Origin: Tubiluchus corallicola
Lineage: Eukaryota; Priapulida; Priapulimorpha; Priapulimorphida; Tubiluchidae
Length of the DNA stretch: 64,000 nucleotides
Assembly (NCBI GenBank): GCA_030141605.1
Contig: JAQGDQ010000166.1
Span: forward strand, 228,661 to 292,660
Direction: 5' to 3'
Shown here: piece by piece, positions 424 to 63,952 of the stretch
How positions within the stretch are numbered: the first letter of the stretch is position 1
How the letters are laid out: each line of letters opens with the position of its first letter
Notes under the pieces: model-generated
Databases searched by the model: none
What the model was told of the DNA's origin: nothing
The model's input: only the letters and a program-made list of their open reading frames with translations
Made by a program: the position numbers and the translations under genes

Positions 424-20382
<19,959 letters not shown>

Positions 20383-34200: not shown

Positions 34201-37200
34201 TCCATGCAAAGAACTTGTATGGATTAACTTGACTGCTTGTCGCACAGGTGACTCACAGGTTATTAACCGAAAGCTGGCTTGAAAATAAAATGTTTACATT
34301 TCCTCCACAGATGGCGCCACATACATGAATTTTAGAAGTAAATTAAAAAATTGCAGCCACAATAGAGATACGTTATGCATGCTTGGTTTTCCTATTTTTG
34401 GATAATTTTCGATTTATAATATATTAATAACACTTGATTAAAACATTTTCGCCCCATAATTTGATTATATAATTTTGTATGTCATCATTCTATTTCATAA
34501 CGCAAATTTCTTTTTTCCATAATCATACATAAATCTTGTTTAGGCGTCCGAAGTTGGGGATGTAGAAAAATGTTTGGAATGGCTGGCTAAACGAGCGAGC
34601 GAACATCAAAAAATAAAGAAGGTTGCCGATTTGGAGGGCCTTGTCATAGATTTGGTTGTCTATGGCACGCCGATAACAGCACCATCTACAGAGCAAATTT
34701 ACAACCGCCTTACCAGCTCTGTTTTTGACTTTGATGAAGACACAAAGTATGTTTCTATTATTTTACAATCTCTATATTTAAAACACTAACTACACAAAGT
34801 ATGTTTCTGTTATTTTACAATCTCTATATTTGAAACACTAACTACACAAAGTATGTTTCTATTATTTTACAATCTCTATATTTGAAACACTAACTACACA
34901 AAGCATGTTTCTATTATTTTACAATCTCTATATTTGAAACACTAACTACACAAAGCATGTTTCTATTATTTTACAACCTCTATATGTGAAACACTAACTA
35001 CACAAAGTATGTTTCTATTATTTTACGATCTTTATATGTGAAACACTAACTACACAAAGTATGTTTCTATATTCTACGATCTCTATATTTGAAACACTAA
35101 CTACACAAAGTATGTTTCTTTATTCTACAATCTCTATATTTGAAACACTAACTACACAAGGTATGTTTCTATTATTTTACGATCTCTATATGTGAAACAC
35201 TAACTACACAAAGTATGTTTCTTTATTTTACGATCTCCATATTTGAAACACTATCTACACAAAGTATGTTTCTATTATTTTACGATCTCCATATTTGAAA
35301 CACTAACTACACAAAGTATGTTTCTATTATTTTACGATCTCTATATTTGAAACACTAACTACACAAAGTATGTTTCTTTATTCTACGATCTCTATATTTG
35401 AAACACTAACTACACAAAGTATGTTTCTATTATTTTACAATCTCTATTTTGAAACACTATCTACACAAAGTATGTTTCTATTATTTTACAATCTCTATAT
35501 TTGAAACACTATCTACACAAAGTATGTTTCTGTTATTTTACAATCTCTATATTTGAAACACTGTCTTCACAAAGTATGTTTCTGTTATTTTACAATCTCT
35601 ATATTTGAAACACTAACTACACAAAGTATGCTTCTATTATTTTGCAATCTCTATATTTGAAACACTAACTACACAAAGTATGCTTCTATTATTTTGCAAT
35701 CTCTATATTTGAAACACTAACTACACAAAGTATGTTTCTATTATTTTGCAATCTCTATATTTGAAACACTAACTACACAAAGTATGTTTCTATTATTTTG
35801 CAATCTCTATATTTGAAACACTAACTGCTTAACGAATAGGTGACTGTTCTGTGTTTATTTATGATTAAATATTTCCTCTGTGACTCGTCTAGTCATTAAT
35901 GTTGTATTTATTTTTTGGCAGTCATTAAAGGAAAACTGGATAATTATGTAAACATTACTTCAAAATAAAGTATGCTCTAAAATATTGAAAACTACAACAT
36001 CTTTTTGTTAAACCAAAGCTTGAATTAAATAATAATTACCTCGGATAGTTAAATTTTATTAAACTTTCAAAGCTACTTGCGGCTCAACGAATCCACTAAA
36101 ATTGGCAGTGGCGCCTTTTTGTCATATTTGCATGGGTGACAAATAGGCGCAGTATGGTGATAAGCATGATTGCGAACCACAGTGTTCATCTGTGACATCA
36201 GTATGATGTAGAGCTCATTTTCGTGACATCACATCAGCGTCTTATAGCAAGTTTCGCTTATGCAAACGTGTGTAACGTTTAATATTAGAAACAATTTGAA
36301 ATATTTGAAACAATTGCTAACTTTTATAGGCAAGAAAATGTATATTTTAGTCAGTAAATTAAAATGAGTTTGAGACATTTTGAGGACAATCATCCGGTTT
36401 TTCTTTAACTTGGATATTTTCATTTTTTCCATTGTAGACGTTTCGTTGTTGTTTCATAGGTCTGAATTTTATTTGTACACCTTCCTTGTTGTTTCATAGG
36501 CCTGAATTTCATTTGTACACCTTTCATTGTTGTTTCATAGGCCTGAATTTCATTTGTCTTTCCTTGTTGTTTCATAGCTCTGAATTTTATTTGTACACCT
36601 TTCCTTGTTGTTTCATAGGTCTGAATTTCATTTGTAGATGTTTCCTTGTTGTTTCATAGGTGTGGATTTCATTTGTACACTTTTTCTTGTTGTTTCATAG
36701 GTCTGAATTTCATTTGTAGACGTTTCTTTGTTGTTTCATAGGTCTGAATTTTATTTGTACACCTTTCCTTGTTGTTTCATAGGTCTGAATTTCATTTGTA
36801 GATGTTTCCTTGTTGTTTCCTAGGTTTGGATTTCATTTGTACACTTTTCCTTGTTGTTTCATAGGTCTGAATTTCATTTGCAGACGTTTCTTTGTTGTTT
36901 CATAGGTCTGAATTTTATTTGTACACCTTTCCTTGTTGTTTCATAGGTCTGAATTTCATTTGTAGATGTTTCCTTGTTGTTTCATAGGTTTGGATTTCAT
37001 ATGTACACTTTTCCTTGTTGTTTCATAGGTCTGAATTTCATTTGTAGACGTTTCTTTGTTGTTTCATAGGTCTGAATTTTATTTGTACACCTTTCCTTGT
37101 TGTTTCATAGGTGCGGATTTCATTTGTACACCTTTCCTTGTTGTTTCATAGCTCTAAATTTCATTTGTACACCCTTCCTTGTTGTTTCATAGCTCTGAAT

Positions 37201-40200
37201 TTCATTTGTACACCCTTCCTTGTTGTTTCATAGGTCTGAATTTCATTTGTACACCTTTGCTTGTTGTTTCATAGGTCTGAATTTCATTTGTAGAACTTAT
37301 GTTGTTGTTTCATAGGTGTGGATTTCATTCCGGTTTGCCGGATTATGCAGAATACGATGCGGAAACACGATATTGCGCTTTGGGTTTTTGCAAACGCAGA
37401 TGGTAAGAATATTTTGAATATTGATCTCAATGTTTGTGATACGCATATTTCATTTTTCCCTATCTCTAAGTTTTCCGTGTCTATGCTACCTTTGCTTAAG
37501 TATGAAATTAGTGGTGTTTTTGTGTTAGTAGTTACAAAGAATAAAAATCATGTTTCCCCTTTTAAAGTCAAATCAACAAAGTGGTGGTGTTTTTGAATAA
37601 AATTGAAAACGAAGTTGTCTGCCTGTGATTATAGAATTACCTCTTACCTCTAAACTTTATGAAGCTCACATGCCATTTCCTTATCTTCAATTCAATTCAA
37701 AACATGCATTTATTTCCATATTCATGATATAACTGAGGCAAGTAAATGTATTTAATTATCACAATGGAAATAGGATGGCGAAAGACCAAGAAGGTCAACT
37801 AGTCGAGCCATCCGTCAATGGATGTATGTGATTATTGGGATGACACTGTAGCTATTTCACTCATGAATAGTAGTGAAATTACATTATTACTATTTTACTT
37901 AGCAACTTGATCTGTTTAAAATTCACTAATCAACTTTAAATAACTGAAGGATGAAAATGCAATCAAAAATATCTAAACTTACAGGAAAATGATGAAGAAA
38001 AGCGATAATAAGGATGACTATGACATAATTAAGCAATGATCTTTGACATAGTTAACCAATGATCTTTGTATCATTGCCGTAGTAATCAACTTATCAGAAA
38101 ATTGAGGAAATTGTTCAGTTTATGTAAAAATTTGTTTATTTAATGCGCATGCAATAGATTTTATTGTATGGCCACTTGGAGGAATTTTAATTTGTACAAT
38201 GTCTGAAAACATAAAAATTTACTCACAATGTTTGAAAATGAAAATTTTTTAATAATGAATATGATTACAGTGCTCGGTGTCTAAGTATACAGCTTGGTGC
38301 AACATATTTTGATGTTATCTATAAGAAATGGGTGTTCAGTTTAATGACTAGATTCAATAGTAATACTAATTGTATACGTCAAAATTTACTTTACATTAGT
38401 GATGTAAAATTTATGTCGCATATCAGTCGCCATTGGTGGAATTTGCTATTAACTGTGTAATTGTTGTATACATCTCCGTGTATTAATTTATTGTGTTAAT
38501 GTGTGTGTTTTTGTTCCTTGTTGTAAATATGTAAATGTTTTATGCTATGAACCTCTGATTTGGAATAAAAAGTTAACAGATGAGAAAAGGGGTACCTGAA
38601 GTGGTTTCAGAAAAATCTCCTTAAAAAATTATACTACTTTATGGCAATTCTATGCGTATATCGTACTCGTGTTGAAAGGATTTTTTGTTTGTTTTCGTTT
38701 TAAATTTCCCATAATACTGTTCCGACCGCACCATTACATGACGTCATATACACACGACGTAAATCAGGGGAAGAAAAGGAAATGTTAAATTATGTATCAA
38801 AAAACTTTCCGTGCAAATCTATATTACTTACCACTTCGCTGACTTGCTGGAAACATTTATATAACTAGAAATAATAATTCAAAAATGTTTGTGTCAACTG
38901 GTAAAATGTCGCTGACTCACCCTCCAATGTGCGCCACTCACTAGGCAAAAACGTATTTTAATCCTATTGACAAGATTCAGTAAAATTTACTTAACTAGCA
39001 ATATGTATGCTATGAATGCTCTGATTATTTTTTCAAACTTTACTCGTTGTTGTCTAAACTTGTTTCAAACAACCTACCATTGAAATGGCTGTGCCTGACA
39101 TTGACGTTTGAGATTAAATTTTCAAGTTTTATACAGAGTTACTGCTGGCGCAAACCCTGCAAGGAAAAAGCCAGTGTTATAGAATGGTATAGAATTTCAA
39201 GACAAATTTTTTAAGCTTTATGTAAATGGAGAGTTTTCTTGTACTTTAAATCAAAATCAAAGTCAAATGAATTCGTACTTAAAACACAGGTGCACAGCTA
39301 TGATCCATCCCAGATGTTATAATTATGTATTCTTAGCAATAAACATGGAAGAACATTTTTTGTACAATGTATAATACGTTACGTTTCCAGCTTTGAGATG
39401 TCTGACATGCTGTGTGAGCATTATGGCTGTACAATGTATAATATGTTACCTTTGCAGATTTGAGATGTCTGACATGCTGTGTGAGCATTATGGCTGTACA
39501 ATGTATAAAATGTTACCTTTGCAGCTTTGAGATGTCTGACATGCTGTGTGAGCATTATGGCTGTTACCTTTGCAGTTTTGAGATGTCTGACATGCTGTAT
39601 GAGCATTATGGCTGTTACCTTTGCAGCTTTGAGATGTCTGACATGCTGTGTGAGCATTATGGCTGTACAATGTATAATATGTTACCTTTGCAGATTTGAG
39701 ATGTCTGACATGCTGTGTGAGCATTATGGCTGTACAATGTATAATGCGTTACCTTTGCAGCTTTGAGATGTCTGACATGCTGTGTGAGCATTATGGCTGT
39801 ACAATGTATAAAATGTTACCTTTGCAGCTTTGAGTTGTCTGACATGCTGTGTGAGCATTATGGCTGTACAATGTATAAAATGTTACCTTTGCAGCTTTGA
39901 GATGTCTGACATGCTGTGTGAGCATTATGGCTGTACAATGTATAATGCGTTACCTTTGCAGCTTTGAGATGTCTGACATGCTGTGTGAGCATTATGGTTG
40001 TACAATAAAAAATGCGTTACCTTTGCAGCTTTGAGATATCTGACATGCTGTGTGAGCATTATGGCTGTACAATGTATAATATGTTACCTTTGCAGCTTTG
40101 AGATGTCTGACATGCTGTGTGAGCATTATGACTGTACAATTACCAGTCGACACCTACCACAAAAGCCACAGAAACAGGTTAGTATAAAATTCGGCCCCGT

Positions 40201-41509
40201 GCAGACATGCAATTTTTAGTTGCACAACTGTTTTGTAATGTACTGTTTTCAATGAGAGCACACAGATATGCAAGTTTTAGTTGTGCAACTGTTTTGTAAT
40301 GTACTGTTTTCAATGAGAGCACACAGATATGCAATTTTTAGTTGTGCAACTGTTTTGTAATGTACTGTTTTCAATGAGAATGCGCAGACATGCAATTTTT
40401 AGTTGCGCATCTGTTTTGTAATGTACTGTTTTCAATGAGAGCACACAGACATGCAATTTTTAGTTGCGCATCTGTTTTGTAATGTACTGTTTTCAATGAG
40501 AACACGCAGACATGCAATTTTTAGTTGCGCATCTGTTTTGTAATGTACTGTTTTCAATGAGAGCACGCAGACATGCAATTTTTAGTTGCACAACTGTTTT
40601 GTAATGTAGTGTTTTCAATGAGAATGCGCAGACATGCAATTTTTAGTTGTGCAACTGTTTTGTAATGTAGTGTTTTCAATGAGACATGTAAATTCTGGAC
40701 ATGTAAAATGCATCTCCACTGATAAATGCTGACTCCGTAAATTATTTGATGGAAATAAATTGAGTCAAAAATTGATAGAAATCGATTTTTCAACACATTT
40801 GTATTTCAAGCATTTAAGCTTGTTATTTTTTTAAAAGATTGCTACAGTAGTATTCCCAGAAGAGGACATGCCAGCGACAGACTATCGTCAATACGAGCCA
40901 CCGGTTCACCCCAAAGTGGAGATCAAATTGTCGGAGGTACCGTAGTTACATCCTCATCTTGTACATTCATCAGTTTCATCAGCTTGTTAAAATACAATGT
41001 GAAACTGTTGTGTATTAACCGTAATTAGCTTTATTAATGTGAAGCCATTTAGGTAAATCCTAGCTGCCTCTTTAGTTTAAAATGTGTAATAAAATTTTTT
41101 TATTCAGACTGTCGTAAGTGACTTCTCAAATTGTATAGAGATTATTGTAATGTATGTCTGAAAAAGGTATAGCACTTCTTATCAATAAATATTTCTTCAT
41201 AGAATAAAAAGGTTGTTAAGCCATCAGTGAGTTCAATTCCTGGTCAGTCTAAGAGTGATGAACCACTGCGACCGCCAACAGCTCCACCAAAGAGTGAGTT
41301 TTATAAGTTTTGTTGTTGTTGTTGCTGTTGTTGTTATTATTGCTGGTGTTGTTGTTGTTGTTGTTGTTGTTGTTGCTGCTGCTGTTGTTGTTGTTGTTGC
41401 TGTTGTTGTTGTTGCTGCTGTTGCTGTTGATGTTGTTGTTGATGCTGTTGTTGTCGTTGTTGCTGTTGTTGTTGTTGTTGCTGCTTGCTACTGTTGTTGT
41501 TGCTGTTGC

Positions 41510-41550
<41 letters not shown>

Positions 41551-41677
41551 GTGTTGTTGTTGCTGTTGTTGTTGTTGTTGTTGTTGTTGTTGCTGTTGTT
41601 GTTGCTTGCTTGCTACTGTTGTTGTTGCTGTTGTTGTTGTCACTGTTGTTGTTGCTGTTGCTGCTGCTGTTGTTGTT

Positions 41678-41708
<31 letters not shown>

Positions 41709-42907
41709 TTTACAGGTAACTTGGCACAGGTGTTTATGTTATTATTACAGGTATGATGAAAGATCAATCCTCTCGCCCTCTGACTGGACAAGAAGCTTTA
41801 CCACAACAGTCTTTCCTAGGAGCTCCGCCTGGAATGGCAGGAATGGCTGCTGCTGCTCCCTACAGAGGTTTCTGTCATTTTTACACTAGTACAGTAGATG
41901 CCTTTATTAGACTCACGGTTAATAGACTCAGTCACTTAATTGACTCAAAAACACCTGGAACGGGCTGCTCTTATTCAAGTGTTTACAAAGACTGTTGATA
42001 CTCATTAAATTTGGATACCAAAATTGAATGCAAGGAAATGTGAAAAAGTTCAGATGCAGCCTTCATTTGAACCAGGGACCTTCTGCTCACACTGCAGATG
42101 CCTTTACCACTAAGCCATCGCATCTCCCAGTGTACCTATATATGTATATTATTTCAGGCAACAATGGCATGCAAATTTCGTAGTCACATTTTATCAATTT
42201 TTTTCTTAGCATTTGACATGAGGGGAGTGGTTGATCCTGAAATGGCCAGCGTCTCAGATATATCCGAAAGAGTTAACATGATGTTTGCAGGTATGTGTAA
42301 CATAAATTTGCTTTTTTATTATATGTGTGCTTGCAGAGTCAGCAATCAACTTTTCTAGTTATTCACATATCCTGAATCTCCATTTCATGAGGATCATTTT
42401 GATACCAAGTTCATTGCTCTATGTTATTTCTAAGCTGAGATAATCCACGTTGAAGTTGAGGTGCAGGCTGCACACTGAAAAACATAATCTTGAGAAAATC
42501 ACTGTTAAAGTCAGCCATTGTTTTTTGTCGCGTTTCTACAAATCACTTAGCAACCACACAAATGTTGGTTGCTATGGACTTTGCAAGAACACATTGAAGT
42601 TATATTTAAATCCAGTAGATGGCTCTTCCAGACGTAGGCCTAAAATTGGTATTTTAGCCTAGCATTAGAATCGATATATTAAAGTTTGGTTTTCCCACTC
42701 AAAAAATGTCTATTGACATGTATACAATATTACTTGATGAAGCAGATGATAAAAGATTATTATAATAGCCGACTTTGCTACAGAATTAGTAGAAAAACTG
42801 TATCTCATTTTCATCATCTTAACTTGCTCATTTTGTTTTTTAACATAGGTGCCGGGAGAGGGCGCGGCCGAGGTGCTGGCGTCTTAGGATACAGTGCTGT
42901 TAAATAG
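22116..42907 (+). CDS. MAEL: Maelstrom homologue (HMG box + MAEL domain), complete, 14 exons
   Basis: Exons: 22116-22259, 26736-26852, 27785-27869, 31777-31923, 32197-32238, 33904-34034, 34544-34746, 37316-37402, 40096-40177, 40838-40936, 41203-41293, 41751-41867, 42210-42290, 42849-42907. All phases agree and give 494 codons plus TAG. Residues 1-75 are an HMG-box-like segment ([20 protein letters not shown]... [20 protein letters not shown]). Residues about 117-345 are the MAEL domain, an RNase-H-like fold, with the family Glu-Cys-His-Cys set at E142, C291, H294 and C310. The C-terminus is GRGRGRGAG, a likely methyl-arginine motif. Known of the family: a germline piRNA-pathway factor needed for transposon silencing. 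It is about 60 aa longer than human MAEL, mostly in the low-complexity C-terminal part. No duplicate copy was seen. Confidence 0.95.
23360..24530. repeat. ~195-bp tandem repeat x6 of LINE C-terminal coding end
   Basis: The unit (ttttttaactgcagtgtgca ... gtatgaatggacttcgttta) repeats about every 195 bases. On the minus strand it encodes [20 protein letters not shown] and [15 protein letters not shown], so the monomer is the end of the LINE reading frame. Copies differ by only a few bases. Confidence 0.95.
24805..24860. repeat. Perfect-arm hairpin insertion in LINE
   Basis: Arm ccaaggactactatactact pairs with its exact reverse complement across a TATA-rich loop. The 7-base GGATTGG flanks both sides. 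Removing the insert restores the LINE frame ([19 protein letters not shown]). Confidence 0.85.
25575..26092 (+). pseudogene. LINE C-terminal fragment, plus strand
   Basis: Codons read [20 protein letters not shown] and [11 protein letters not shown], then [30 protein letters not shown] and VNRFRN. This is the CR1/jockey RT C-terminal layout (EYASPVW, RR.FFS.RV.N.WN.L). Frameshifted and truncated, head to head with the minus-strand LINE. Confidence 0.7.
26190..26718. mobile_element. MITE family E, copy 5
   Basis: Shares cgcaaacacaatttcatgtt, tgttagtttgtgatgaacta and the end ggatagaatatgaaaagtca then cctgtcttcctttaa. The end lies about 20 bases upstream of MAEL exon 2. Confidence 0.75.
26736..26852 (+). 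CDS. MAEL: MAEL exon 2 (HMG box C-terminal half)
   Basis: Encodes [20 protein letters not shown], the third HMG helix, then a polar linker. Acceptor ttttcag, donor gtaagc, phase 0 on both sides. Confidence 0.93.
27166..27320. repeat. 33-bp tandem repeat x5 with CCAAT/TGACGTCA
   Basis: The unit (gaatgcttatttttccacca, then atgacgtcattt) repeats at 33-base steps. Four copies carry the palindrome TGACGTCA or a one-base variant, directly after CCA. Confidence 0.93.
27607..27737 (-). other. Inverted-repeat element with hammerhead-like core
   Basis: 34-base arms (agttaaaaacaacacaact...) pair with one mismatch. On the minus strand the loop reads CCACTGATGA, a GACA...TGTC stem, GAAACGTTTGG. These are the CUGAUGA and GAAA core boxes of a hammerhead ribozyme, with CCA/TGG as stem I. 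An unpaired T between CTGATGA and the stem is a caveat. Confidence 0.5.
27785..27869 (+). CDS. MAEL: MAEL exon 3 (charged linker)
   Basis: Encodes [20 protein letters not shown] then KKKWTSKE. Acceptor aaacag, donor gtttgt, phase 1. No clear family motif; placed by frame and position. Confidence 0.8.
27929..28528 (+). mobile_element. hAT-like element, copy 1 (CAGTGGCGGCTC)
   Basis: Starts cagtggcggctcatttatag. Its other end (ctgaagcagcatccccacta ... atgagcctctg) matches the inverted end of the copy at 47172-47735. A 68-codon open frame ([20 protein letters not shown]...) lies inside; I do not recognise it with certainty, and it may be a transposase remnant. Confidence 0.65.
28850..28980. repeat. 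~65-bp tandem repeat, 2-3 copies
   Basis: gtgtatcaaaaagcttaata with a following aacttacatg block recurs twice, then a third partial copy. Confidence 0.75.
29130..29525. mobile_element. Probable DNA-transposon fragment (gggcc-rich)
   Basis: gcagcccagggcccctcaat near the left and tccaaaaagtcatagcccgg near the right resemble widespread hAT-type non-coding elements. The ends are not clearly inverted. Confidence 0.35.
30549..31039. mobile_element. hAT-like MITE (CAGGGATGAGAAT ends)
   Basis: The 13-base ends CAGGGATGAGAAT and ATTCTCATCCCTG are perfectly inverted, with CTCCAA just outside both. It has split a ggagtcgg-type repeat (30440-30548 and 31040 on). A tcaattgtgcggagttattt block at 30750 shows a further nested family. 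Confidence 0.8.
31080..31730 (+). pseudogene. LINE 3' end with C-terminal codons and A-rich tail
   Basis: Codons give [20 protein letters not shown] and [14 protein letters not shown], then a 3' UTR and a taataaactaaaaaataaaa tail. The UTR is shared with 44225-44615. The A-rich tail ends about 50 bases before MAEL exon 4. Confidence 0.8.
31777..31923 (+). CDS. MAEL: MAEL exon 4 (start of MAEL domain)
   Basis: Encodes [20 protein letters not shown] and [15 protein letters not shown], aligning to the EIGCVKYSLQEGI core of human MAEL. Donor gtatgt, phase 1. Confidence 0.95.
32197..32238 (+). CDS. MAEL: MAEL exon 5 (42-base exon)
   Basis: Encodes [13 protein letters not shown]. Acceptor atttttag, donor gtaagt (chosen over a weaker gtaaca eight bases upstream because it keeps phase 1 and the family alignment). 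Confidence 0.85.
32325..33025. mobile_element. Interspersed element family G, copy 1
   Basis: Shares ggtaaaacattttaccaatt-like blocks, cttcccttcatttacgtttg and ctttaaaggaaacgaaaagg with copies at 38570, 49870 and 62560. The TTTAAAGGAAA end links it to families E and F. Confidence 0.7.
33275..33360. repeat. (TC)n tract
   Basis: Imperfect CT run directly before the 34-bp array. Confidence 0.92.
33388..33830. repeat. 34-bp tandem repeat, about 13 copies
   Basis: The unit gcaacaatagtatgcaataa plus gacacttatcccga repeats, ending about 75 bases before MAEL exon 6. It does not include the acceptor. Confidence 0.95.
33904..34034 (+). CDS. MAEL: MAEL exon 6
   Basis: Encodes [20 protein letters not shown] then PPVYCL, matching the HKIPISNFE and PPIYC landmarks of MAEL. 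Donor gtaagt, phase 0. Confidence 0.95.
34544..34746 (+). CDS. MAEL: MAEL exon 7
   Basis: Encodes [20 protein letters not shown] and [11 protein letters not shown]. It ends DEDT plus AA (phase 2) at donor gtatgt. Its last seven bases and the donor are repeated about 21 times downstream. Confidence 0.94.
34740..35826 (+). repeat. 52-bp array spanning the MAEL exon 7 splice donor, about 21 copies
   Basis: The first unit begins with the last seven exon bases, acacaaa, followed by the donor gtatgttt. Units acacaaagtatgtttctatt ... gaaacactaact then repeat at about 52-base steps. Most copies keep AAA|GTATGT; a few have gcatg. Confidence 0.95.
35926..36418. mobile_element. MITE family F copy
   Basis: Starts attaaaggaaaactggataa and ends aatcatccggtttttcttta, inverted. 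The interior has gcgcctttttgtcatatttg. Confidence 0.78.
36440..37315 (+). repeat. 41-bp array spanning the MAEL exon 8 acceptor, about 21 copies
   Basis: Each unit reads cttgttgtttcatag then gtctgaatttcatttgtaca. The last copy is the real acceptor and exon start (tttcatag|GTGTGGATTTCATT). Some copies carry gtgtgga exactly as in the exon. Confidence 0.95.
37316..37402 (+). CDS. MAEL: MAEL exon 8 (Cys-His-Cys residues)
   Basis: Encodes [20 protein letters not shown] then ALGFCKRR, carrying C, H and C of the metal-binding set. Its acceptor and first 14 or so bases are the last member of a 41-bp array. Confidence 0.95.
37684..37830 (-). mobile_element. LINE 3' end remnant
   Basis: On the minus strand an A-rich tail (ttgaattgaattgaa type) ends a short UTR-like stretch. 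The 52080-52295 stretch has the same tail form. Confidence 0.4.
38570..39245. mobile_element. Interspersed element family G, copy 2
   Basis: Reverse orientation to copy 1; contains tgaagtggtttcagaaaaat, attacatgacgtcatatac and gcgccactcactaggc. Confidence 0.75.
39380..40140 (+). repeat. 67/51-bp array spanning the MAEL exon 9 acceptor, 12 copies
   Basis: Each unit has ttacctttgcag then about 45 exonic bases (ctttgagatgtctgacatgc ... ggctgtacaat) then gtataatatg. Eleven copies precede the real exon at 40096; two lack 16 intron bases, giving 51-bp steps. Confidence 0.96.
40096..40177 (+). CDS. MAEL: MAEL exon 9
   Basis: Encodes [20 protein letters not shown] then PQKPQKQ. It is the last copy of a 67/51-bp array, and the only copy followed by a strong donor (gttagt) and conserved downstream codons. 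Confidence 0.92.
40192..40690. repeat. ~61-bp tandem repeat, about 8 copies
   Basis: The unit agacatgcaatttttagttg, then ctgttttgtaatgtactgtt and ttcaatgagagcac, starts about 15 bases after the MAEL exon 9 donor. The donor itself is not repeated. Confidence 0.94.
40838..40936 (+). CDS. MAEL: MAEL exon 10
   Basis: Encodes [20 protein letters not shown] then [13 protein letters not shown]. Acceptor aaaag, donor gtaccg, phase 0 on both sides. Confidence 0.85.
41203..41293 (+). CDS. MAEL: MAEL exon 11 (Pro/Ser-rich)
   Basis: Encodes [20 protein letters not shown] then LRPPTAPPK. Donor gtgagt, phase 1. The downstream intron is almost wholly TTG/CTG repeat. Confidence 0.87.
41308..41713. repeat. 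TTG/CTG trinucleotide array filling MAEL intron 11
   Basis: About 400 bases of TTG with CTG interruptions. It starts about 15 bases after the exon 11 donor and ends 38 bases before exon 12. It produces spurious poly-Leu, poly-Cys, poly-Val and poly-Asn frames. Confidence 0.97.
41751..41867 (+). CDS. MAEL: MAEL exon 12 (low complexity)
   Basis: Encodes [20 protein letters not shown] then [16 protein letters not shown]. Acceptor attacag, donor gtttct, phase 1. Confidence 0.85.
41890..42000. mobile_element. Fragment of ttaatagactc pogo-like family
   Basis: cagtagatgcctttattaga and gttaatagactcagtcactt match the left end of the element at 54088. Confidence 0.6.
42058..42130 (-). other. tRNA-like SINE fragment
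   Basis: The minus strand reads GATGGCTTAGTGGTAAAGGC (A-box-like), a TCTGC...GCAGA anticodon-type stem with a 7-base loop, GGTCCCTGGTTCAAATGA (B-box-like) and a T run 20 bases on. The loop lacks U33 and the acceptor ends do not pair, so this is not a working tRNA. Confidence 0.55.
42210..42290 (+). CDS. MAEL: MAEL exon 13
   Basis: Encodes [20 protein letters not shown] then RVNMMFA. Acceptor tttcttag, donor gtatgt, phase 1. Confidence 0.87.
42335..42800. mobile_element. Interspersed element family H, copy 1
   Basis: The ttcatgaggatcattttgat, tttctaagctgagataatcc and agatggctcttcc blocks are shared with 51165, 55245 and 61745. Confidence 0.7.
42849..42907 (+). CDS. MAEL: MAEL exon 14 (Arg-Gly tail, stop)
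   Basis: Encodes [19 protein letters not shown] then TAG. Repeated RG pairs fit symmetric dimethylation and Tudor-protein binding, as in other piRNA factors (inference). GC-rich compared with the flanking intron. Confidence 0.88.
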
Positions 42908-43074
42908 GATCTCTAGTCCGGTAATCTTAATTACGTCATATTTTCCGTATAGGCCCGGCCGAGTTCCATCATGTGGTTTCCACATTTTTTAAGAGTAATT
43001 CTTAAATGATCAGAGCAGGAAATTCAGTTTTTTTGACATTTTGACGCATTATGTCAAAATTGTTGCTGTCAGTA

Positions 43075-43465
43075 ATCATTTTCACATTTCCAGTTATTGA
43101 TGATGATCATGAAAAGGTCAAAGGTTAAGTGTATCAGACAGGAAATTTGTGTACAATTGACAATGCCTCGCAGCTCATGCTATTGTAATAGAAACAGTTT
43201 TAACAGCTAGCCAGAGCCTTACCTAGTTCATTTTTTCTTGTTTCCAAACAAGATACTGCTAGTAACTCACTCTGTGCATAGACTAATGAATCATTAAGTA
43301 AAGTCCAGGTGAAACAACTGAAGTTACTGAATTGATGTGGCAAACGGCTTTGCCTTACATACATGTCGCATGACGGACATACTTTAGACGCATTCCTGTG
43401 GTACACTTAACCTTTGACCTTCATCAACTGAGCGTGCGCATAACAAAACTGCAAAAAGGCTTGTT
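43075..43465. mobile_element. MITE family D, copy 3
   Basis: Inverted to copies 1-2; carries gaaaaggtcaaaggttaagt and acacttaacctttgacct. Confidence 0.82.
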
Positions 43466-43594
43466 TCATTGTGAAGTGATGTGATACAAACAATGTGAAA
43501 TGAAGCCAGGATTTACTGGCCGTCTGAACATGGAATAAAGCAGGCAAAATCCTAAATAAAGTATCATTCTCTTCGTACCCAACTCATGTGTGTA

Positions 43595-43970
43595 CAGTGT
43601 TCCCTCACTTATCCCGGGTATTCCGTTCCAGGCCCACCCGCGATAAGTGAACTTTTGCAAAATAGGGACGCTGTAATTATTTGCAGGCGCAAGTACTACA
43701 TTTCGTTTTTGGTGTGTATTCATCCGCCGAATACACTATTTACTGTAAATGGTAATTTTTTATGATTTATAATATTCTTTTAATGTTAGAATTAATATTT
43801 TTAATATATTTTTATACATTTTGTGATTTTTTATGCATGTGCAAAAATACTTTAGACGGAGCACCGCAAAAACAGTAAAAATACCTCGATAAATATTTTA
43901 CATTAATATTTCTGAAAACCCGCGAAACAGCGAGTCCGCGATAAACAAATCGAGTAGCGAGGGAACACTG
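43595..43970. mobile_element. pogo/Tigger-like MITE, copy 3
   Basis: cagtgttccctcacttatcc to gcgagggaacactg, flanked by TA on both sides (target duplication). Confidence 0.88.
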
Positions 43971-44224
43971 TAACTGCACTACTTACAGTCGTATGTAATG
44001 TCACTTTACCACAATGTAAAGTTGAGGCCTCAGCATTTCCTGTAAATAAACCATACTGCAAATTTTTTTATTTAAAATATAGAATTTCATTTTATTGTTT
44101 CTATTCTGAATTATGTAGCGGAACCATAATGTTTTCAACGCGTAGGGGCTCTTCATGTCTTAATCCCGGCTCTGAATATATTCTAGAATTATAGCATAAT
44201 TGTACCCGTAGCCAAAAATTGCGT

Positions 44225-44618
44225 TAGTTGCACATCAATATCATACCACAATCCTGGTACAGATTATACAAAACAAGGCATCATTGATAAATCTTTAGAG
44301 CTGATGTCAACATAGCACAGCCTTTTATCTTTCTTCCTACCATTTCCACTAACACGTCCTTCTACCCTTCCTGTGTGATCTAACCTTTGTCCCAGTTCTT
44401 TTTTTGTTCAGTCATCCATTCTTTTTTTTATCTGGTTCACATGACAGTGGGCTTATACAAGCCTTTGCTTCTCTAGCCCCGCTGCAATACAATTATTCTT
44501 TTATGATAACAATAGTGTATGAAACATAAGAATTTAATACAGTATGAAGTAACAATTTAGATGTCACTGTGTGCTTAATGTCATTATATTGTACTAATAA
44601 TAATAAAAAAAATTCATC
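44225..44618 (+). mobile_element. LINE 3' UTR copy (same family as 31316-31730)
   Basis: aaaacaaggcatcattgata, ttagagctgatgtcaacata and agtgggcttatacaagcctt match, ending in an A-rich tail. Severely 5'-truncated. Confidence 0.8.
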
Positions 44619-44638
44619 ATCGCCATTTTTTCTTGCAG

Positions 44639-44802
44639 AGTGTAAAGTAATGCCGGTGTGCCGAAGTGCCGATGCGCAATATTTAGTCAGCACCTTTTCC
44701 ACATTTTCGGAGAAACTTTTTAGGCTTCATCGATCTTTTGCTATTTTCTTTATAAATAAAAAGGGAGAAAGTATTACTGAAACAAACTTGCCTACAGTCT
44801 AG
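44639..44802 (+). CDS. Orphan terminal-exon-like ORF, possible alternative MAEL end
   Basis: A strong acceptor (ccattttttcttgcag) is followed by an open frame ECKVMPVCRSADAQYLVSTF, FSEKLFRLHRSFAIFF, KKGESITETNLPTV and TAG. The entry phase suits MAEL exon 13 (GCA G then AG TGT). The composition looks more coding than its flanks. I recognise no family. It could also be an exon of an unseen gene or part of a transposon. Confidence 0.3.
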
Positions 44803-45560
44803 AATCGCAATGAACTTAATGCGAAAAAAATATGTTCAACTATTGTAGCACTTTTAATTTTAATTTTAATTAATTTTTTATTGTGTTTTGTATAATTTTC
44901 TAACAGTATTATTCATTTATATTTGTTAATCGTAATGCAACAGTAATAATATGGGAAGATATTATTTAAAGATAATTGTAATCAAGCTTACATGTAATAT
45001 TTAAGAATTTGTTGCAATTTTGTGGCTTACTAATTAAACGCTTTATGTCAAGTTTTTGTTTATGATGAAGAATCCGTCATCTTTTATAGGTTTTACATGT
45101 CAAATGTAGACCTGCGTTAACTCAAATGTAGATTTAGGTAATTCAAATGTGTCTTGGTAACTCAAATGTAGACTTAGGTAGTTCAAATGTGTTAACAATG
45201 ATTTTAAATTTAATCTTCTTTAATTTCAATTTAATAATTGCTCTTAAGTTAAAATAACAACGTTAGAAAACGATACCTTCTTAAATAAACAATGTTTCTT
45301 GACAGAAACTAATTCATTAATGCATTAAAATTTAGCGTAAATGTGACATGTTTTTACCAGCTAGAATACGGCTTTCTTATCAGTAGAATTCGTTTGTAAA
45401 ACTTGTGTTATGTATTTCCGAAATCCCACAAAAATTAATATTCTCGATAATGTCAAGTTTTAATTTATCTTATTAAAGCGGATTTAGGTTTCATTATATG
45501 TTTAAGGTTTTTTTTAATTTATCATTGTCAAAGTTGGATTCCGTTGGATTGTGATGCATA
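44803..45560. other. Intergenic, nothing recognised
   Basis: AT-rich sequence with a minor caaatgtagactt-type motif repeated four times at 45100-45190. No coding or transposon signature seen. Confidence 0.5.
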
Positions 45561-45569
45561 TTAAGCAAA

Positions 45570-46628
45570 CTGTAATTGTGCAGTATTCGCAGTAGTAACA
45601 TTAAAAACTGTAATTGTGCAATATTTGCAGCAGTAACATTAAAACTGTAATTGTGCAATATTCGCAGTAGTAACATTTAAACTGTAATTGTGCAATATTC
45701 GCAGTAACATTAAAACTGTAATTGTGCAATATTCGCAGTAGTAACATTAGAACTGCAATTATGAAGTATTCGCAGCAGTAACATTAAAACTGTAATTATG
45801 CAATATTCGCAGCAGTAACATTAAAACTGTAATTATTCAGCATTCGCAGCAGTAACATTAAAACTGTAATTATGAAGTATTCGCAGCAATAAAATTAAAA
45901 CTGTAATTATGCAATATTCACAGCAGTAACATTAAACTGTAATTATGCAGCATTTGCAGCAGTAACATTAAAACTGTAATTATGCAGCATTCGCAGCAGT
46001 AACATTAAAACTGTAATTATGCAGCATTCGCAGCAGAAACAGTAAATGCAGCATTCGCAACAGTAACATTAAACTGTATTTATGCAGCATTCGCAGCAGT
46101 AACATTAAAACTGTAATTATGCAGCAGTAACAGTAAAACTGTAATTATGCAGCATTCGCAGCAGTAACATTAAAACTGTAATTATGCAATATTCGCAGCA
46201 GTAACATTAATATTCGCAGCAGTAACATTAAAACTGTAATTATGCAATATTCGCAGCAGTAACATTAAAACTGTAATTATGCAATATTCGCAGTAGTAAC
46301 ATTAAAACTGTAATTATGCAATATTCGCAGTAGTAACATTAAAACTGTAATTATGCAATATTCACAGTAGTAACATTAAAACTGTATGCAGTCTTCGCAG
46401 CAGTAACATTAAAACTGTAATTATGCAATATTCACAGTAGTAACATTAAAACTGTATGCAGTCTTCGCAGCAGTAACATTAAAACTGTAATTATGCAATA
46501 TTCACAGTAGTAACATTAAAACTGTATGCAGTCTTCGCAGCAGTAACATTAAAACTGTAATTATGCAATATTCACAGTAGTAACATTAAAACTGTATGCA
46601 GTCTTTGCAGCAGTAACATTAAAACATG
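45570..46628. repeat. 37-bp minisatellite, about 28 copies
   Basis: The unit cagcagtaacattaaaactg then taattatgcaatattcg repeats with length variants (short forms actgtatgcagtcttcg). It sits between the convergent 3' ends of MAEL and the EGF receptor. Confidence 0.96.
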
Positions 46629-47171
46629 CGAATATGTAACGCTCGCATCACACGGTGTAATAACTTCAAATTCCAAAAATACAGGAAATGAGATATACGA
46701 AATCTATTTACATTTATTACTGTCCAATCTCGAAAGGGGGGTGGGGTCTACATGATACTTTTCACATCTTAAAAGCAACAAATTTGATTGTAAATTCACT
46801 AAATTCAAACAACGGGTCTTCGACTGTGCCTTGACAAACAACCATTTAAAATCACTAACATAAAACTGCCAAGATGTTCGTTTAAAATGTAAAAGTGTAC
46901 AAAGTTTAAAAATTATACAGTAAAAAAGTTTTAAAAAATTATGCCACGTAAAATTATTATAAATTACTCAGTTTGCTGCACGACGTCTTGTACATTGTAA
47001 CATTCACAATACCATGATGATAAAACCATTAGCTGTTTAAGAAAATCGCATAGTACACAATAATTAAATAATTACGCTCTAGTCATATATATAAAATACA
47101 GAAGCTTAACAAAAGGTAAAATACAGAAGCTTAACTTGATTATAAACGGTGCATTAAGGGGGACCAGGAAG

Positions 47172-47815: not shown

Positions 47816-49482
47816 TCACATACGCGTAACTGATGATTTGAAACTTCGAGGCGTATCGTACAATTCACCACTCAGCGAAGTCAATGAATTTTCATAGATC
47901 CCATACGAATCGTTGGGATTAGAAAACATATCTGCAGCGTTCGGTTCGTCATGAATGTTATGGTTAACGCCACTATCACAAAGCTGCGTATTTTCCGGGA
48001 TATTTTCTAATTGAGATTTTTGTTGAATGTCGCCATTAGTCCTACCGTCCGAGCTCGAATCACCGTCAAAATTGCTGGAAGAATCACCCGCCATTGCATC
48101 AGTGAGAAAGGACGTTCTGGGAATATCGTAAACGCTATCGTCCGACGCGGTCGAAATGCGATTACCGGATGCGTCCGGGTTTTCCGGGGTTTTACTCCGT
48201 TCCTTGTCCGGAATTCGCGGCGGCGGATACTTTCCAGTCAGTTGACCTTCCGTTAAACTATTCATTGACCTGGTTGAAATTCTGGATCTTGGCGATTGGG
48301 ATCCACTGCCGGAACTACTTTGCGAAAATCTACTTGCATCCGATCTATCGCTCACACTAGATAGCAGCGAGATGGGTCTTCCGATATTGTCCGAAATTTC
48401 CGAGTAAATGTTCGACTGCGGCCTTAGGTTGTCATCTTCGGCATTCGAATTTAAATATTCATCAGGTCTAGGAGGGAGGGGACTATTAGGGGGGCTGCGC
48501 TGTACACGGCGGGGTTTACTGGATGTCTTGGGACTAGTCGGTTTACCGGGAACTAGCTTTCGTGGACGAGGTCGCGGGACGGAAGACTGTTTTCCCGAAT
48601 GCTGATCGACATCGCTTATCTCGTGTTTCGGAATCTCTTTTCTCGGGCGAGGAAGAGGCGGTTTCCTTCTAGGTTTTTGTTCGTTTACCGCTATGTATTC
48701 GTAGGTGCTAGATGGCTGCAGCGGTACGTCTTCGTTGTCGGAGCCGTCAAAAAACGTACTTTTGCCGACGGAAACCGTTTTTGCCGCATCACGTCTGGGA
48801 ACCGGTTCTTCGGGTAAGTCAAGCTCACAGTACTCGTTCTCCAATACAGATGGAGGATTATTTCCATCTGTCAATGAATCGTGCAATCTTGACGGTGAAC
48901 TTACCGGCTCGCTAGCATCAGAGTTCGAACGCACAGATGATGCGGTATCGATACCGCTGCTCAACCGCCCGTATATGCTTGGCGGGGACGATGGAACCTC
49001 CGCAGCTGGACGAGTGAACTTACGCGAACGGTCGATTGTATCGTACTGACCGCCACTCGCCGACAATTCCACATCATCCGGGTAATCCTCGGAATTTTTC
49101 GTCTCTTCTTCGATATCGGCGTACACCACATCCTGCGTGGGCTCGTTTCTGGCGACAACGATCAAATCTTCGCCTTTATCTCCAACAGCACTGCGCACAT
49201 TATTCAAGTTCGAATTACAGCACTGTACCGTAAGACCTTCCGGTTCTTCTTGAGGAGCTATGTATTCGTACACGTTATCAGATGTTGGAGAATCATTTCC
49301 TTCCGTTGGTGGTAAATCGGCACCCGCGTCCGCGAGCGGATTATTAACCATCACAGGAGCGTTAATGTCCACTCTCGTGAGAGGCGTCTGCTCCGTAGAA
49401 TCGCTGTCACTTTCCACTGGACTGCCGGTACTTTTTGACGAAGAATGGTAATAAATCGGATTCATCCCGGAAGCGGCTGTTC
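47816..49482 (-). CDS. Cytoplasmic-tail terminal exon, tyrosine-rich
   Basis: 555 codons from acceptor tttacag to TGA at 47818-47816. After NPIYY it is disordered and Ser/Pro/Asp-rich with spaced tyrosine motifs: VYEYIAP, VYADIEE, YDTIDR, YGRLSS, YCELDL, YEYIAV, YLNS, YSEISD, YDIPRT, YENS and YDTPRS. The proline block KPPLPRPRK and [13 protein letters not shown] fit SH3 binding. YxxI/L pairs suggest ITAM-like docking, YxN suggests Grb2 and YxxP suggests Crk/Nck (inference). GC content is clearly higher than in the surrounding DNA, as expected for coding sequence. Confidence 0.9.
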
Positions 49483-52400
49483 CTGTAAAAGCAACCGTGA
49501 CAGATTAGAAGATGTTATAATGATCACCGTTTTGTTCACGGAACTAAATTCAGGACTTTGCTCGGTCAGCATGGCAATGTACTCGTACATGTGACTGAAT
49601 CACGTGCATAAACAAAGGTCTATAAAACCGTCTAAAGTTTACACTAGATGCTAAAGTACAAAAACATGTATGCTCATGTATTATTTATACATCTTGCTAC
49701 AAGCGAGCTAATCTTAAATATGAAATAAATGCAATGAAAAGTGCTACTTGGTTACATACCAGAGAACTGGAATCTTTATCTTAATCTTACTGTAATTACA
49801 AATAGATGACAACTGTATTAAATCATGTACTGTGCAACATACATTATTTACTTAATTTATGTAATTTGACACAAGAAAAGAGGCACCTGAAGTAGATTTC
49901 AGAAAAACTGCCTTAAAAATTTTATTACTTTATAGCAATTTTATGCGTGTATCGTATTCGCGTTGGAAAGATTTTTTGTTTGCTTTCATTTTAAATCTCC
50001 CGCAATACTGTTCCGAAGTCACCATTATATGACTTCATGTACCAAACGTAAATCAAGGGAAGAAAAGGAAATGTTAAATTATATCTCAAAAGACTTTAAA
50101 GCAAATCTATATTACTAACATTTTCGCTTACCTGCTAGAAAGATTTATGTAACTAGAAAAGAAAATTATTAATTATTTAAAATGTTTTCACCAATGGGTA
50201 AAATGTCGCTGACTCACCCTCCAGGGAGCGCCACTCACTAACCAAAAACTTATTTTTAATCTTATTGACAAGATAGAGTAATTTAAAATTTTACTTAGCT
50301 AGTGACTTGTGCACTACGAATGCTCTGATTATTTTTTCCAACTTTACACAATGTTAAATAAACTTGTTTCAAATGACTTATCATCAAAGGCTGCGTCTAA
50401 CGGTCATCGCGGAAATTTACATGCTTTATGCAGCGTTCCTGTCGATGCAAGCCCTGCATGCAACAAGGCAGTACGTAAGTGGTATAAAATTCCAAGACGA
50501 ATTTTTTATGCTTTATGTAAGTGAGAGGTTTTCTTGTGCTTTAAAGGAAGACAGGATGGTTTTTCATATAACTACCCAACTTTCAAATGCGGTAAAAAGT
50601 ATACATCTTAACTCCAATAATACGGCGAAAGTGTTTTGATAAAGAATAGACTAAAATCTTAATTAACGGCAGGCAAGCCCAACTATTGATGACATCACAA
50701 ACTAACATAATTTTCAACAACAAAAATATTCCATGAGCGTGTTGCACGTGTTCGCGAAAGAGAAAATTGAAGTTCAGTGCTACAGTAAGATATTCAGTGT
50801 GTTGTACTAAAGCAAGGCAAGTTTTAAGGTAAAAATTTAAATTTAAATTTTATCGCTGTGCTTACGCGTGAGCTGTTGAACGAGTGTAGTTCATCACAAA
50901 CTAACACATTTGAACTGAGAGGTACAGCAGCTGTAGGTGCAACGTTTTGCGAAATGCAGGCGCTAGTGCCCGTCTAACTAGCGAATGGCGAAATGCATGT
51001 AACAGCGAAGAACTAATGGCGCGAACGTGAAATTGTGTTTGTGAGGAAATAATTCTTCCACGTAAGTCATTTTTGAAAAATAGTGTTTCCTTTCAATATT
51101 TTAAAGAATAAATTGTTTTGACCTACAGTTTAGGGTTGCTCTGGCTTTCCTTTACATAGTGCACTGCAATTGACTCATAGAAGCCGTTTATTGATAAAAA
51201 CAGAAATCCCTTAGTAGAAGCTGAATAACGATGCAGCCTAAACTATTATTAAGTTTTCTAAAAACATCAAATTTGTGTAAACCGAAGCACACAAGTTATC
51301 AATTATAATCATTATATAAAACAGATACGTGTGCTTGCAAACCAAAATCGTCCATAAATCGGTATAGTTAAAACTACATTATGATGCCTCAACGTAGAAT
51401 GACCAAAAATTCAGTCAAATGTCAATTTTTGTTTTTTTATAAACACAAATGGTAAATAAACGGCCTTTTATATTAAAAAAACATTGAAAATTCAATTTTA
51501 TAACCTCCCAACCACTTTTCTGGCTAGAAACTAGTACTGCAATTGTATTTTCAACTCCGATGATAGCTCCTGGAAGCTGTCATTTTGCTTCAGGTTTTTT
51601 CTATTGCCAAGCCCAGAGATCTTTGTCAGGAAGAGCCATCTACCGGATTTAAACATAACTACAATGTGCTCTTGGAATGTCTGTAGCAACCAACATTTGT
51701 ACGGTTCTAAGTGTTTTGTAGAGACGGGACAAAAAACAATGGCTGACTTTAACAGTGATTTTCTCAAGATTATGTTTTTCAGCTTGCAGCCTGCACCTCA
51801 ACTTCAACGTGGATTATCTCAGCTTAGAAATAACATAGAGTGATGAACAGGGTATCAAAATGATCCTCATGAAATGGAGATTCAGGACGTGTAAATAACT
51901 AGAAAAGCTTAATTGCCGACTTATGGACGATTTTGCTACACATGCATTTATATCAATTATAATAATTATATAAAACAGATGAGTTTCTAAATAAAAAAAA
52001 TCACTGCATTTATGTGTGGTTAACACTCTTAATTCTTTACTGTGCTTGACGTTATGCCTTGTTATGCTTTGAATTGCATTTCTGTGTTGAGCTGATTTTT
52101 GTTGCTTTTGCCTTTTATATATACATATACATACATATACATATACATAAAGCCTGTAAGTAAACTTGTATTTTTAATAAGGGGCAGCTGACCAAGTGAC
52201 TAATAGGTCTTTCGCTGCTCCTTTTCAGCTGCAATGAACTGTAAAAATAATTATGACGAATTTTAACTGCTATTGAGAAAATAAAAAAAATTGAATTGAA
52301 TTTACCTGTACGTGTTGTGCTGGAAGAACTTCAATTGTTCACAATCTTAATTTTTTACCTGTATGTGTTGTGCTGGAAGAACTTCGATTGTTCACAATCT

Positions 52401-55400
52401 TAATTTTTTACCTGTACGTGTTGTGCTGGAAGAACTTCGATTGTTCACAATCCTATTTTGGTCGTAATTGGGATTTTGAAAGTTATACTCCGCCTCCGTG
52501 GGTCTCCTGTACGTTCGTGGCGGAGGTCTTCGCGGCGGACTGGACGAATTACCGACATAGTGAACATCTCCATTGTGGACACAGCGAGTCTTCAGTTCAA
52601 TATCAGCACCAGATCTGTAAATAATTTGACACGATGACCAAACTAACTAGATCATGTGATGCAGAATAAGAGTTTTCACAGTTTCAGTGATTGATGATGA
52701 TCGTGAAAAGGTCAAAGGTTAAGTGTACCAGACAACGCATTTGTGCACACATGACGATGTCTGTCTGAATAAACCTTTTCGCAGTTCCAGCAATTGATGA
52801 GGATCATGAAAAGGTTAAGTGCACCAGTCAACACGTTTGTGTACACTTGACAACGCCTCGCAGCACATGCTGTTGTAATAGTAACAGTTTTAACAGCTAG
52901 CTAGAACCTTACCTAGTTCATATTCTCTTGTTCCCAAGCAAGATTCAAAACAAATGAAACAACTGAACTGATGTGAGAGACAGCTTTGCTTTACCAACAC
53001 GTCATGTGCGGTTGCTGTTAAAACGCACAGCTGTGGTACACTTAACTTTTACCCTACAGCAACTGCAAGTGCGCCCAACGAAACTGTGAAAAGGCTTAAT
53101 GGAGACATTAATAATAATGCAGCAGCTTGAAATTACATAACTTAGTTTAAACACCAGCATAAATTTGATCAAGTTTTTCTTGCACACATGTGTGAAAGCA
53201 GCTTAATCAGCACAACACATTTGCTCACGTGGCAGTTACTCAGCATGTTATCATTAGACAAATGCTTTTTCCTGAAATGTTTACACAATCATGCATACCT
53301 CTGCTTGCGACGCCATCGCACAACAAGCACTGCTAATAAGATAAGCAAGAAAAACACGACTCCTACAACGCAACCAATCAGGATGGGCAAAAAATCGCTT
53401 CCTTCGTTGTCTGCCCCTGCGACGAGTTCTGCCACCTCGCAAGTGTCTCCTTCCCAACCTGCCGTGCAGTTGCACCAGCCGGTCACTGGATGGCACTGTG
53501 CACCATTTTTACACCTACATGCAAAGGCACAATCCGGGCCATATCTTCCAGCTGGACATTCTGAAAATTTCAGACTAAAATGAGAAATGTGTAGAACTGT
53601 TATAACAATGCAAAAATTTTTCATCATATATTTACTATGCCAGATTATTAATATCCTGCTATTTGATCTTATAATAAATTATACAGTAGGTTGATATGAA
53701 GAAGTAAAATACAGGTGAGCTTTATTTATATATTTAAGTCACATGCTTACTAAGTGATCTCTGAAAGCCAACTGACCAGGTAAGTTTTTTTCCATGAAGC
53801 AAGGAAGCCAGCAATTCAATGAAGGTAAATGTTATTCATACTAGTTCAAGGTGAAAGTTTAGACTGTATATAAGAAATAGACTTATTTTATAGCTGAAAT
53901 TTCTTAATGTTTTAATGTTTTTTAATGTTTTAACAAGAGAATGTAATAATATGACTAATGATCATAATTAAGAACTAATAATTAATAAAAATAAGATAAA
54001 GAAATTGTGAGCTTCACGACAGCTGATACCTCAGCTTACATATCTGGATTGAAGCCGTGAGACTATACAAAAGCAACATAGCAAACACAGCAGTCGCCGC
54101 TTAATAGACTCGCGGTTAATAGACTCAATCGCTTAATTGACTCAAAACAGCCTGGTACTGGCCGCTTCTACTCAAATGTACATAAAAACTGTCAGTAATT
54201 GACTTAAATAACTTAGCTTAATTGACCCAAAAACACCTGAAACGGGCCGCTTCTATTCAAATGTACCTAAAACTATCGGTAATTGACTCACATAAATTCA
54301 CTTAATTGACTATTTTTCCTACTTAAAACAAGACATTTGTTTGTATCCAAACAGCCTTTCCTACTTTTATGTCATCTTTACTTCCCTTTTGTGCATTATG
54401 TATGTAGAAACAATCATGTTAAGTACCGTTTTGTTTGTAAACAGGTACGCTTATCATGCGCTAATACACTAGTGTAGCGGTTTTGCTTTGAATCTGTTAC
54501 CTGCTCGCCCAATGCAAATAACCTTGCTACCCAAAGAATTTCTGGAAGCTAAACATTTAATCACTTGCTTAGCGGTTTCCTTTTGATGCTCTAGTTGCAA
54601 ATCACGCTTTCAGGCTTAATGAGTTAATAGTAAAAGATGCGCGTACAGTATAATCAGCTGGTATTCGTTGAGACTTACAAGAGTAAACATCGTACAGCAA
54701 GTAAGAGCATAGAGTTAAGAAGTTTGAAAAATGGAGCATAAGCATAAAAATCTAACAGTTAAGGAGAAACTGAAAATTTTAGCTCAGTACGATCTAGAAA
54801 AGTATACTTTTTAATTTACTGTTAATTCACTTATATAAATTAATATTTTAAAATATTTTTTTTCTAATTTATAACTGCACAAAGGAATTTAGGGATTACT
54901 TCGTTTCTAAAATTCATTAAAAACCTTTGCAGTGCATATTTATCTGATGAATCATACTTCTATACCTGTAATAGGACACCCATCGGTTAATAGATTTAGT
55001 CGGTTAATTGGGTCAAAACACTTCAGTCCCAAAGTGAGTCTATTAAGCGGCGCCTACTGTATCATAATTCAATTTTAACGAAATAGTTCAATGTTGATTC
55101 TAATATCATAAGCACTGCTTGATAAAATGCGATATTACAACGTACAATTTCGCATTATTTGAGACATCCCCGTATTCTCGGAAAAATTTAATCTAACACA
55201 TTTGAATATAACCCGAAGCACAATCGGAAAAAGAGAATGCTATACATGGGCTTGTATAGCAAAATGCAAGACTCACAGAAACCATTTATTAATAAAAATC
55301 AACAGAAATCCCTTAACACAGGCTGAATAACGATGCAGTCTAAACTATTATTAACTTTTCTAAAAACAGTGAATTTGTGTAAACTGAACTAAATTATCAA

Positions 55401-63952: not shown

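Follow-up and report, generated by a model that had tools for sequence, protein, structure and literature searches.

Five tandem arrays multiply splice junctions in two neighbouring genes and resemble the mirages of lancelets

Five junctions of two neighbouring genes lie inside five tandem arrays in the window, i.e., the whole stretch of 64,000 nucleotides that was analyzed, and each junction is repeated 3 to 24 times. Together, the arrays contain 82 copies for 5 real junctions, that is, 77 extra copies, as counted by copy-by-copy wrap-around alignment to the unit. This is a structure of a known kind, termed mirage, in an apparently new lineage. The arrays are probably ordinary minisatellites that were born by slippage across junctions and that are tolerated since splicing hides them.

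Three genes were modelled in the window:

22116..42907, plus strand: MAEL, 15 coding exons, 536 amino acids, single open frame (hand-built model with translation check; Pfam)
47820..63933, minus strand: 3' part of a MEGF10/11-PEAR1-Draper-type receptor, 10 exons seen, low end approximate
424..20270, minus strand: CLPB/SKD3 mitochondrial disaggregase, 14 exons (from reading and homology), start of the first exon approximate

The MAEL model has GT at all donors and AG ahead of all internal acceptors. Its product matches the Pfam Maelstrom domain (1.3e-33) and also has an HMG box, and a search of the assembly with PF13017 found one matching place, so that MAEL is a single match. The receptor has eight exons with laminin-type EGF repeats, the eighth of which also encodes the TM segment, followed by a juxtamembrane exon and a long tail exon. 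Among solved structures an EGF-like domain protein (6u11) was its top match, then Tie2 and, weaker, SCARF1, and the top protein matches among the 106 listed were MEGF10, PEAR1 and MEGF11. Because the structure and protein matches are of this kind, the gene was assigned to the MEGF/Draper type. The initial annotation had called it the EGF receptor; EGFR was excluded, since Pfam, PDB and homologues indicate MEGF10/PEAR1/SCARF/Draper. The third gene, CLPB, was added to the set, and the about 38 known exons of that annotation were replaced by a count of 39 exons with 74 junctions (28 in MAEL, 19 in the receptor and 27 in CLPB).

Some further features of the window were observed. CLPB exon 2 has an apparent GC-AG intron (ACG/GCAAGT, window 19431-19432), which keeps the frame. 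Trinucleotide repeats at 3941-4294 stop about 12 bases upstream of a CLPB acceptor (exon 3862-3929) and may act as the tract ahead of the AG. A broken LINE with a reverse-transcriptase-like reading (by eye) lies at about 24900-25450 on the minus strand, and a 193-bp x 6 array (23366-24528) adjoins it. A tRNA-like match at 42052-42124 on the minus strand (Rfam RF00005, 31 bits, E 0.017) is possibly a SINE head; ARAGORN found no tRNA gene at this place.

The arrays and the exons that they enter are as follows:

34544..34746, plus strand: MAEL coding exon 8, its donor ACACAAA/GTATGT is the first copy of array 1
34740..35826, plus strand: array 1, 52-bp unit x 21, 7 exonic and 45 intronic bases, runs into intron 8
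36432..37329, plus strand: array 2, 41-bp unit x 22, 28 intronic and 13 exonic bases, AG in 22 of 22 copies
37316..37402, plus strand: MAEL coding exon 9 (CGFHSG... of the Maelstrom domain), its acceptor is the last copy of array 2
39361..40140, plus strand: array 3, 67-bp unit (two copies about 51 bp) x 12, 45 exonic bases, AG in 12 of 12 copies
40096..40177, plus strand: MAEL coding exon 10, its acceptor is the last copy of array 3
63039..63831, minus strand: array 4, 33-bp unit x 24, 18 exonic bases, its first copy is the donor of a receptor EGF exon
63813..63933, minus strand: receptor EGF exon, its donor is the first copy of array 4
52301..52459, minus strand: array 5, 53-bp unit x 3, 41 exonic and 12 intronic bases, GT in 3 of 3 copies
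52412..52614, minus strand: receptor juxtamembrane exon, its donor is the first copy of array 5

That five arrays each hold a real GT or AG junction had been proposed in the initial annotation, and both TRF and the in-frame models bore this out, including the positions. The proposed range of 7-45 exonic bases per unit also held (7, 13, 45, 18 and 41 for arrays 1 to 5). The junctions were real, but the MAEL exon numbering was off, and the sites are the donor of coding exon 8 and the acceptors of coding exons 9 and 10. All in all, three donors and two acceptors are affected, and MAEL intron 8 begins in array 1 and ends in the unrelated array 2. The copy attached to the exon is always found at the edge of the array, i.e., it is the first copy in the donor arrays and the last copy in the acceptor arrays, and the extra copies are on the intron side in all five cases. 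It is precisely the exon-attached copies that the open frames of MAEL and the receptor use in the in-frame models. The intronic splice dinucleotide, GT or AG, is present in 78/82 copies. Array 1 has GT in 19 of its 21 copies and GC in two, array 4 has GT in 22 of 24, GC in one and CT in one, and thus four of the 77 extra copies (three GC, one CT) have neither GT nor AG.

A scan independent of TRF, in which each junction was compared with its own intron, gave scores of 25-35 for five of the 74 junctions and at most 14 for the other 69. Decayed copies were not evident at these 69 junctions, and because the scores are sharply two-peaked, there are no obvious relic arrays. Acceptor 10 of the receptor beat its controls in the decay scan, yet its score is at background level. 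For other arrays in the window, the initial annotation had given a number of at least five; with TRF 21 others of period 10 or more were counted. Among the repeats of the window, a 61-bp array (40201-40684) begins 24 bases past MAEL donor 10 and a TTG repeat (41310-41693) begins 17 bases past MAEL donor 12; neither includes the donor.

The strength of the multiplied sites was scored with a splice matrix derived from the remaining 34 donors and 35 acceptors of the window. In arrays 1-4, 78 of 79 sites scored at least as high as the lowest genuine site, and in array 4 as many as 21/24 copies reached or exceeded the median genuine donor. The real site was not the strongest in arrays 1 and 4, it was 0.1 bit under the best in array 3, and it was tied in array 2.

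The consequences for the proteins were analyzed by swapping the real site for each extra copy in the gene model. In arrays 1, 2, 3 and 5 a premature stop resulted with all 54 extra copies (20+21+11+2; two are GC donors). For MAEL this means that each of the 52 extra copies would truncate the protein if used. The 54/54 stops are therefore evidence against splice-site buffering, which had been suggested as one meaning of the arrays. According to that idea the extra copies are retained as backup splice sites, and the intact dinucleotides of nearly all copies are in its favour. Any backup in the four arrays would, however, lead to a stop, and for MAEL the idea is largely refuted. The variation between the copies was also taken into account. 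The deviating bases in splice-core versus other columns of full-length copies were 5/144 versus 22/688 in array 1, 3/300 versus 53/520 in array 2, 8/135 versus 12/468 in array 3 and 21/216 versus 18/576 in array 4. Because the core variation was lower only in array 2, and not in arrays 1, 3 and 4, the extra copies in arrays 1-4 do not generally show signs of selection. We give hardly any credence to a retention as backup sites.

Array 4 is different in that the frame stays open with 23/23 extra copies, because 33 bp are 11 codons without a stop. The frame is open throughout the array, (GKxVNxDHCDI)n, and the insert would consist of GKxVNxDHCDI repeats. Generation of protein variation, another meaning proposed initially, is thus possible at the 33-bp array only, while the stops make it, like buffering, unlikely at the four others. 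Array 4 might then be a length dial, in which alternative in-frame donors add steps of 11 residues to the EGF region of the receptor. The unit length, the open frame and the many donors at or above the genuine median would fit, and an in-frame AGGT repeat array with stochastic splicing is described in passages of PMC10809524 for human UBC. On the other hand, by a rough estimate chance alone would give about 0.8 open units with a length divisible by three among five arrays, the changes between copies are mostly amino-acid changing (by eye), each step would add one extra cysteine, and the last copy, with CT for GT, could not serve as a donor. We thus consider such a dial very unlikely.

With respect to the origin of the arrays, no similarity was found among the five units, and no convincing match of the units to the rest of the window (the best outside matches were 13-15 bp, E 0.075 or worse). 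The unrelated units point to separate origins of the five arrays, in agreement with the initial proposal. Short repeats were present at the borders of three arrays. In array 3, the 8 bp TGTACAAT are found at both borders, one intronic and one exonic, and in array 2 CATT (4 bp) is found at both. In array 4 the final copy terminates in GGCTATAAATG, and GGCTATAA is shared by that copy and the left flank, i.e., the exon just before the array. No clear border repeats were seen at arrays 1 and 5, and slippage is therefore not indicated for these two. In addition, array 2 contains a four-unit block of 164 bp about three times over (36591-37082).

Copy numbers of repeats are difficult to assemble, and an assembly artefact could have altered them. 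However, it could hardly have created the arrays, since copies differ from one another, variants recur in a patterned order and a similar array is present on another contig. For these reasons an artefact was rejected as the sole cause, and we regard it as extremely unlikely as an explanation.

It had been claimed that five hits are far above chance, and this was retained only in part. The main null for the window comprised 26 arrays of period 10 or more and the 74 junctions. When whole arrays were shuffled, 6.1 matches were expected versus 5 observed, and five or more were obtained in 80% of the trials (P=0.80). When one-unit footprints of the 26 arrays were used, 1.52 matches were expected (P=0.014), and the expectation was 1.12 with 7 bases on each side (P=0.0034) and 0.84 with at most 45 exonic bases (P=0.0011). 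The one-unit null gave 0.74-1.31 for the 23 genic arrays (P 0.0006-0.007) and 0.71-1.16 for the 16 arrays with a period of 20 or more and about three or more copies (P 0.0005-0.004). Of the six arrays of ten or more copies, four are at junctions versus 0.24-0.34 expected (P 3e-5 to 1.3e-4). Sliding of all arrays together gave P=0.012. An alternative merging of TRF rows (31 arrays) resulted in expectations of 2.30 or 1.77 (P=0.084 or 0.034), and thus the merging alone moved the expectation for the window from 1.52 to 2.30. All these P values are uncorrected and are for a window that was itself chosen, post hoc, because of the junction-array pattern. A crowding of the 21 other arrays near junctions was not seen, as 1, 4 and 7 of them are within 50, 100 and 250 bp versus 2.9, 5.4 and 11.3 expected. 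The arrays at junctions are thus weakly in excess of chance, 2-6 fold with P values of 0.001-0.08 under the one-unit nulls, but below the expectation when whole arrays are shuffled.

The excess under the one-unit nulls, down to P values of 5e-4 in the subsets, and the four of six high-copy arrays would be in accordance with junctions as true hot spots, at which some property of spliced DNA or of the nascent RNA would favour duplication or expansion right there. This has to be weighed against the whole-array shuffle, the P values of 0.03-0.08 with the other TRF parse and the choice of the window. In addition, none of the 27 CLPB junctions is inside any array, and donors as well as acceptors are involved. 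A focus on U1-bound sites, as initially suggested, does not fit two acceptors among five sites, and neither does a focus on R-loops fit the G skew of the coding strand, which ranges from -0.42 to +0.54 without a common direction.

The rest of the genome was sampled with two Pfam families, for which 116 matches were listed in the assembly (343.5 Mb, 2344 contigs). Five ATPase matches in very long open frames, possibly bacterial or intronless (L032, L033, L034, L036 and L050), and 27 myosin matches beyond the DNA stretches taken were left out. The sample comprised 84 exons (66 myosin-head and 18 E1-E2 ATPase) with inferred, not annotated, junctions. Of 168 edges 133 distinct ones were counted, and 35 were dropped (no candidate splice site, short flank or duplicate). 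One clear further case was found, the donor ACAATG/GTAAGT of a myosin-head exon, with which a 36 bp x 9.9 array begins, and reading past the first donor leads to a stop in the second copy. Furthermore, the donor region of an E1-E2 ATPase exon resembles the unit of an adjoining 61-bp array and is a possible decayed case (70-mer score 27 versus 22 for the best of 500 shuffles). The two arrays are:

L062 4401-4755, minus strand: myosin donor array, 36-bp unit x 9.9
L038 946-1487 / L066 7971-8512: 61-bp array beside the E1-E2 ATPase exon

Junction-spanning arrays are thus present in at least three genes of one genome. Because one clear case compares with 0.35-0.70 expected under the one-unit null for the 133 edges, the genome sample shows no excess, which also speaks against hot spots, a reading that is in our view unlikely. 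The rate was 0.75% (95% interval 0.02-4.1%) in the sample versus 6.8% (2.2-15%) in the window; for 1/133 versus 5/74 the Fisher test gave P=0.023, or 0.10 if the decayed case is counted. The window is array-rich, since 15% of it is made up of arrays with a period of at least 10, versus 3% in twelve 10-kb gene stretches. In the same search, two myosin loci in opposite orientation on contig C917 of the assembly (about 20.4-24 kb and 90.7-94.2 kb) had largely matching rows and scores, which suggests an inverted duplication or an assembly fold-back. The E1-E2 ATPase matches on contigs C151, C1761 and C863 are in open frames of 750-886 amino acids, and these contigs are possibly bacterial.

The explanation by slippage-born arrays that splicing hides would work as follows. 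A short stretch across a real exon-intron junction would have been tandemly duplicated on the spot by slippage or unequal exchange. The border repeats of three arrays and the multi-unit block of array 2 suggest that slippage came first and unequal exchange second. Splicing would use the exon-attached copy only, and the other copies would leave with the intron; a normal mRNA is expected in view of the reading frame and the example of the lancelet mirages. Growth into the intron would be invisible as long as the exon-proximal site wins, and thus the arrays could persist. The open frames, the near-identical splice signals, the 54/54 stops, the border repeats and the recurrence in a myosin gene count for this explanation. 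The lack of clear border repeats at arrays 1 and 5 counts against it, as does the higher rate in the window than in the genome sample. The in-window counts above most one-unit nulls and the high share of many-copy arrays at junctions count against a process that is indifferent to junctions. A combined reading, according to which minisatellites preferentially arise or grow at splice junctions throughout the animals, a so far unrecognised positional rule lets the spliceosome select the exon-attached site from more than 20 near-identical ones and the receptor has a tunable 11-residue dial, is regarded as improbable.

Judged from its CLPB sequence, the host animal is no close relative of Branchiostoma. 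The identity of the CLPB of the window was 64.9% to Branchiostoma (one lancelet compared) and 64.9-70.1% to the other 19 sequences, which makes a lancelet origin of the window very unlikely, and in a tree of 21 CLPB sequences it grouped with three sequences with a support of 0.92. No close protein relative of the window genes was found among the matches listed (5; the best 120 of 7993; 106). Mirages had previously been described as a feature of lancelets, and it had been proposed that new introns may arise through them. They are now seen in an animal not closely related to Branchiostoma, where 20 or more nearly equivalent splice sites follow one another, and this suggests that they are a general by-product of slippage in intron-rich genomes. 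The arrays are also natural test loci for the choice of the spliceosome among near-identical sites.

Several known systems were compared. Among the papers listed by a literature search there was no report of mirages outside cephalochordates (most subscription papers and bioRxiv preprints were outside its scope). Repeats in an earthworm metallothionein gene were rejected as a precedent, because they are intronic in the source, as far as its available text goes. For potato RdRp, PMC4974935 describes an intron gain by tandem duplication; a duplication across the intron-exon boundary is shared, but no new intron is inferred here. In segmental duplications of the human genome, genes are modified by variable minisatellites (on average 30 bp x 4), some of which are at an exon-intron boundary. 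In passages of PMC2812944 these boundary repeats are tied to novel introns or exon-retained repeats in recent paralogs, whereas MAEL has an intact frame here and is a single match in the assembly. The dual-specific splice-site arrays of UBC and VCX3A share the AG/GT and the multiple-of-three unit with array 4. In the UBC type, as presented in parts of PMC10809524, the intron lies within the array and its length is a multiple of the unit, whereas the introns run far beyond the arrays here, and no intron has both ends in one array, as is exemplified by MAEL intron 8 with its ends in unrelated arrays.

The closest counterpart are the mirages of amphioxus, i.e., tandem repeats over exon-intron boundaries, which passages of PMC3087553 and PMC3902484 describe for Adh3, the globins BflGb6 and BflGb9, TnC and PGBD5. 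Mirage-like structures are cited there also for amphioxus retinol dehydrogenase and presenilin, the lancelet Adh3 data and globin RT-PCR are taken to show that regular splicing continues, and somatic instability is cited for the Adh3 mirage. Unlike these, the arrays described here have up to 24 copies, versus 6 and 3 in two BflGb6 haplotypes, normal splicing is predicted from the DNA of one haplotype, and the host is very unlikely to be a lancelet, which is a descriptive and not a structural difference. The structural features agree with the amphioxus mirages, the units of which are 10-160 bp long in these accounts. As in the mirages, minisatellite-like repeats lie over donors or acceptors, the unit crosses a genuine exon-intron boundary in 5/5 arrays, both 5' and 3' boundaries are affected, and the extra copies are intronic, many of them with splice signals.
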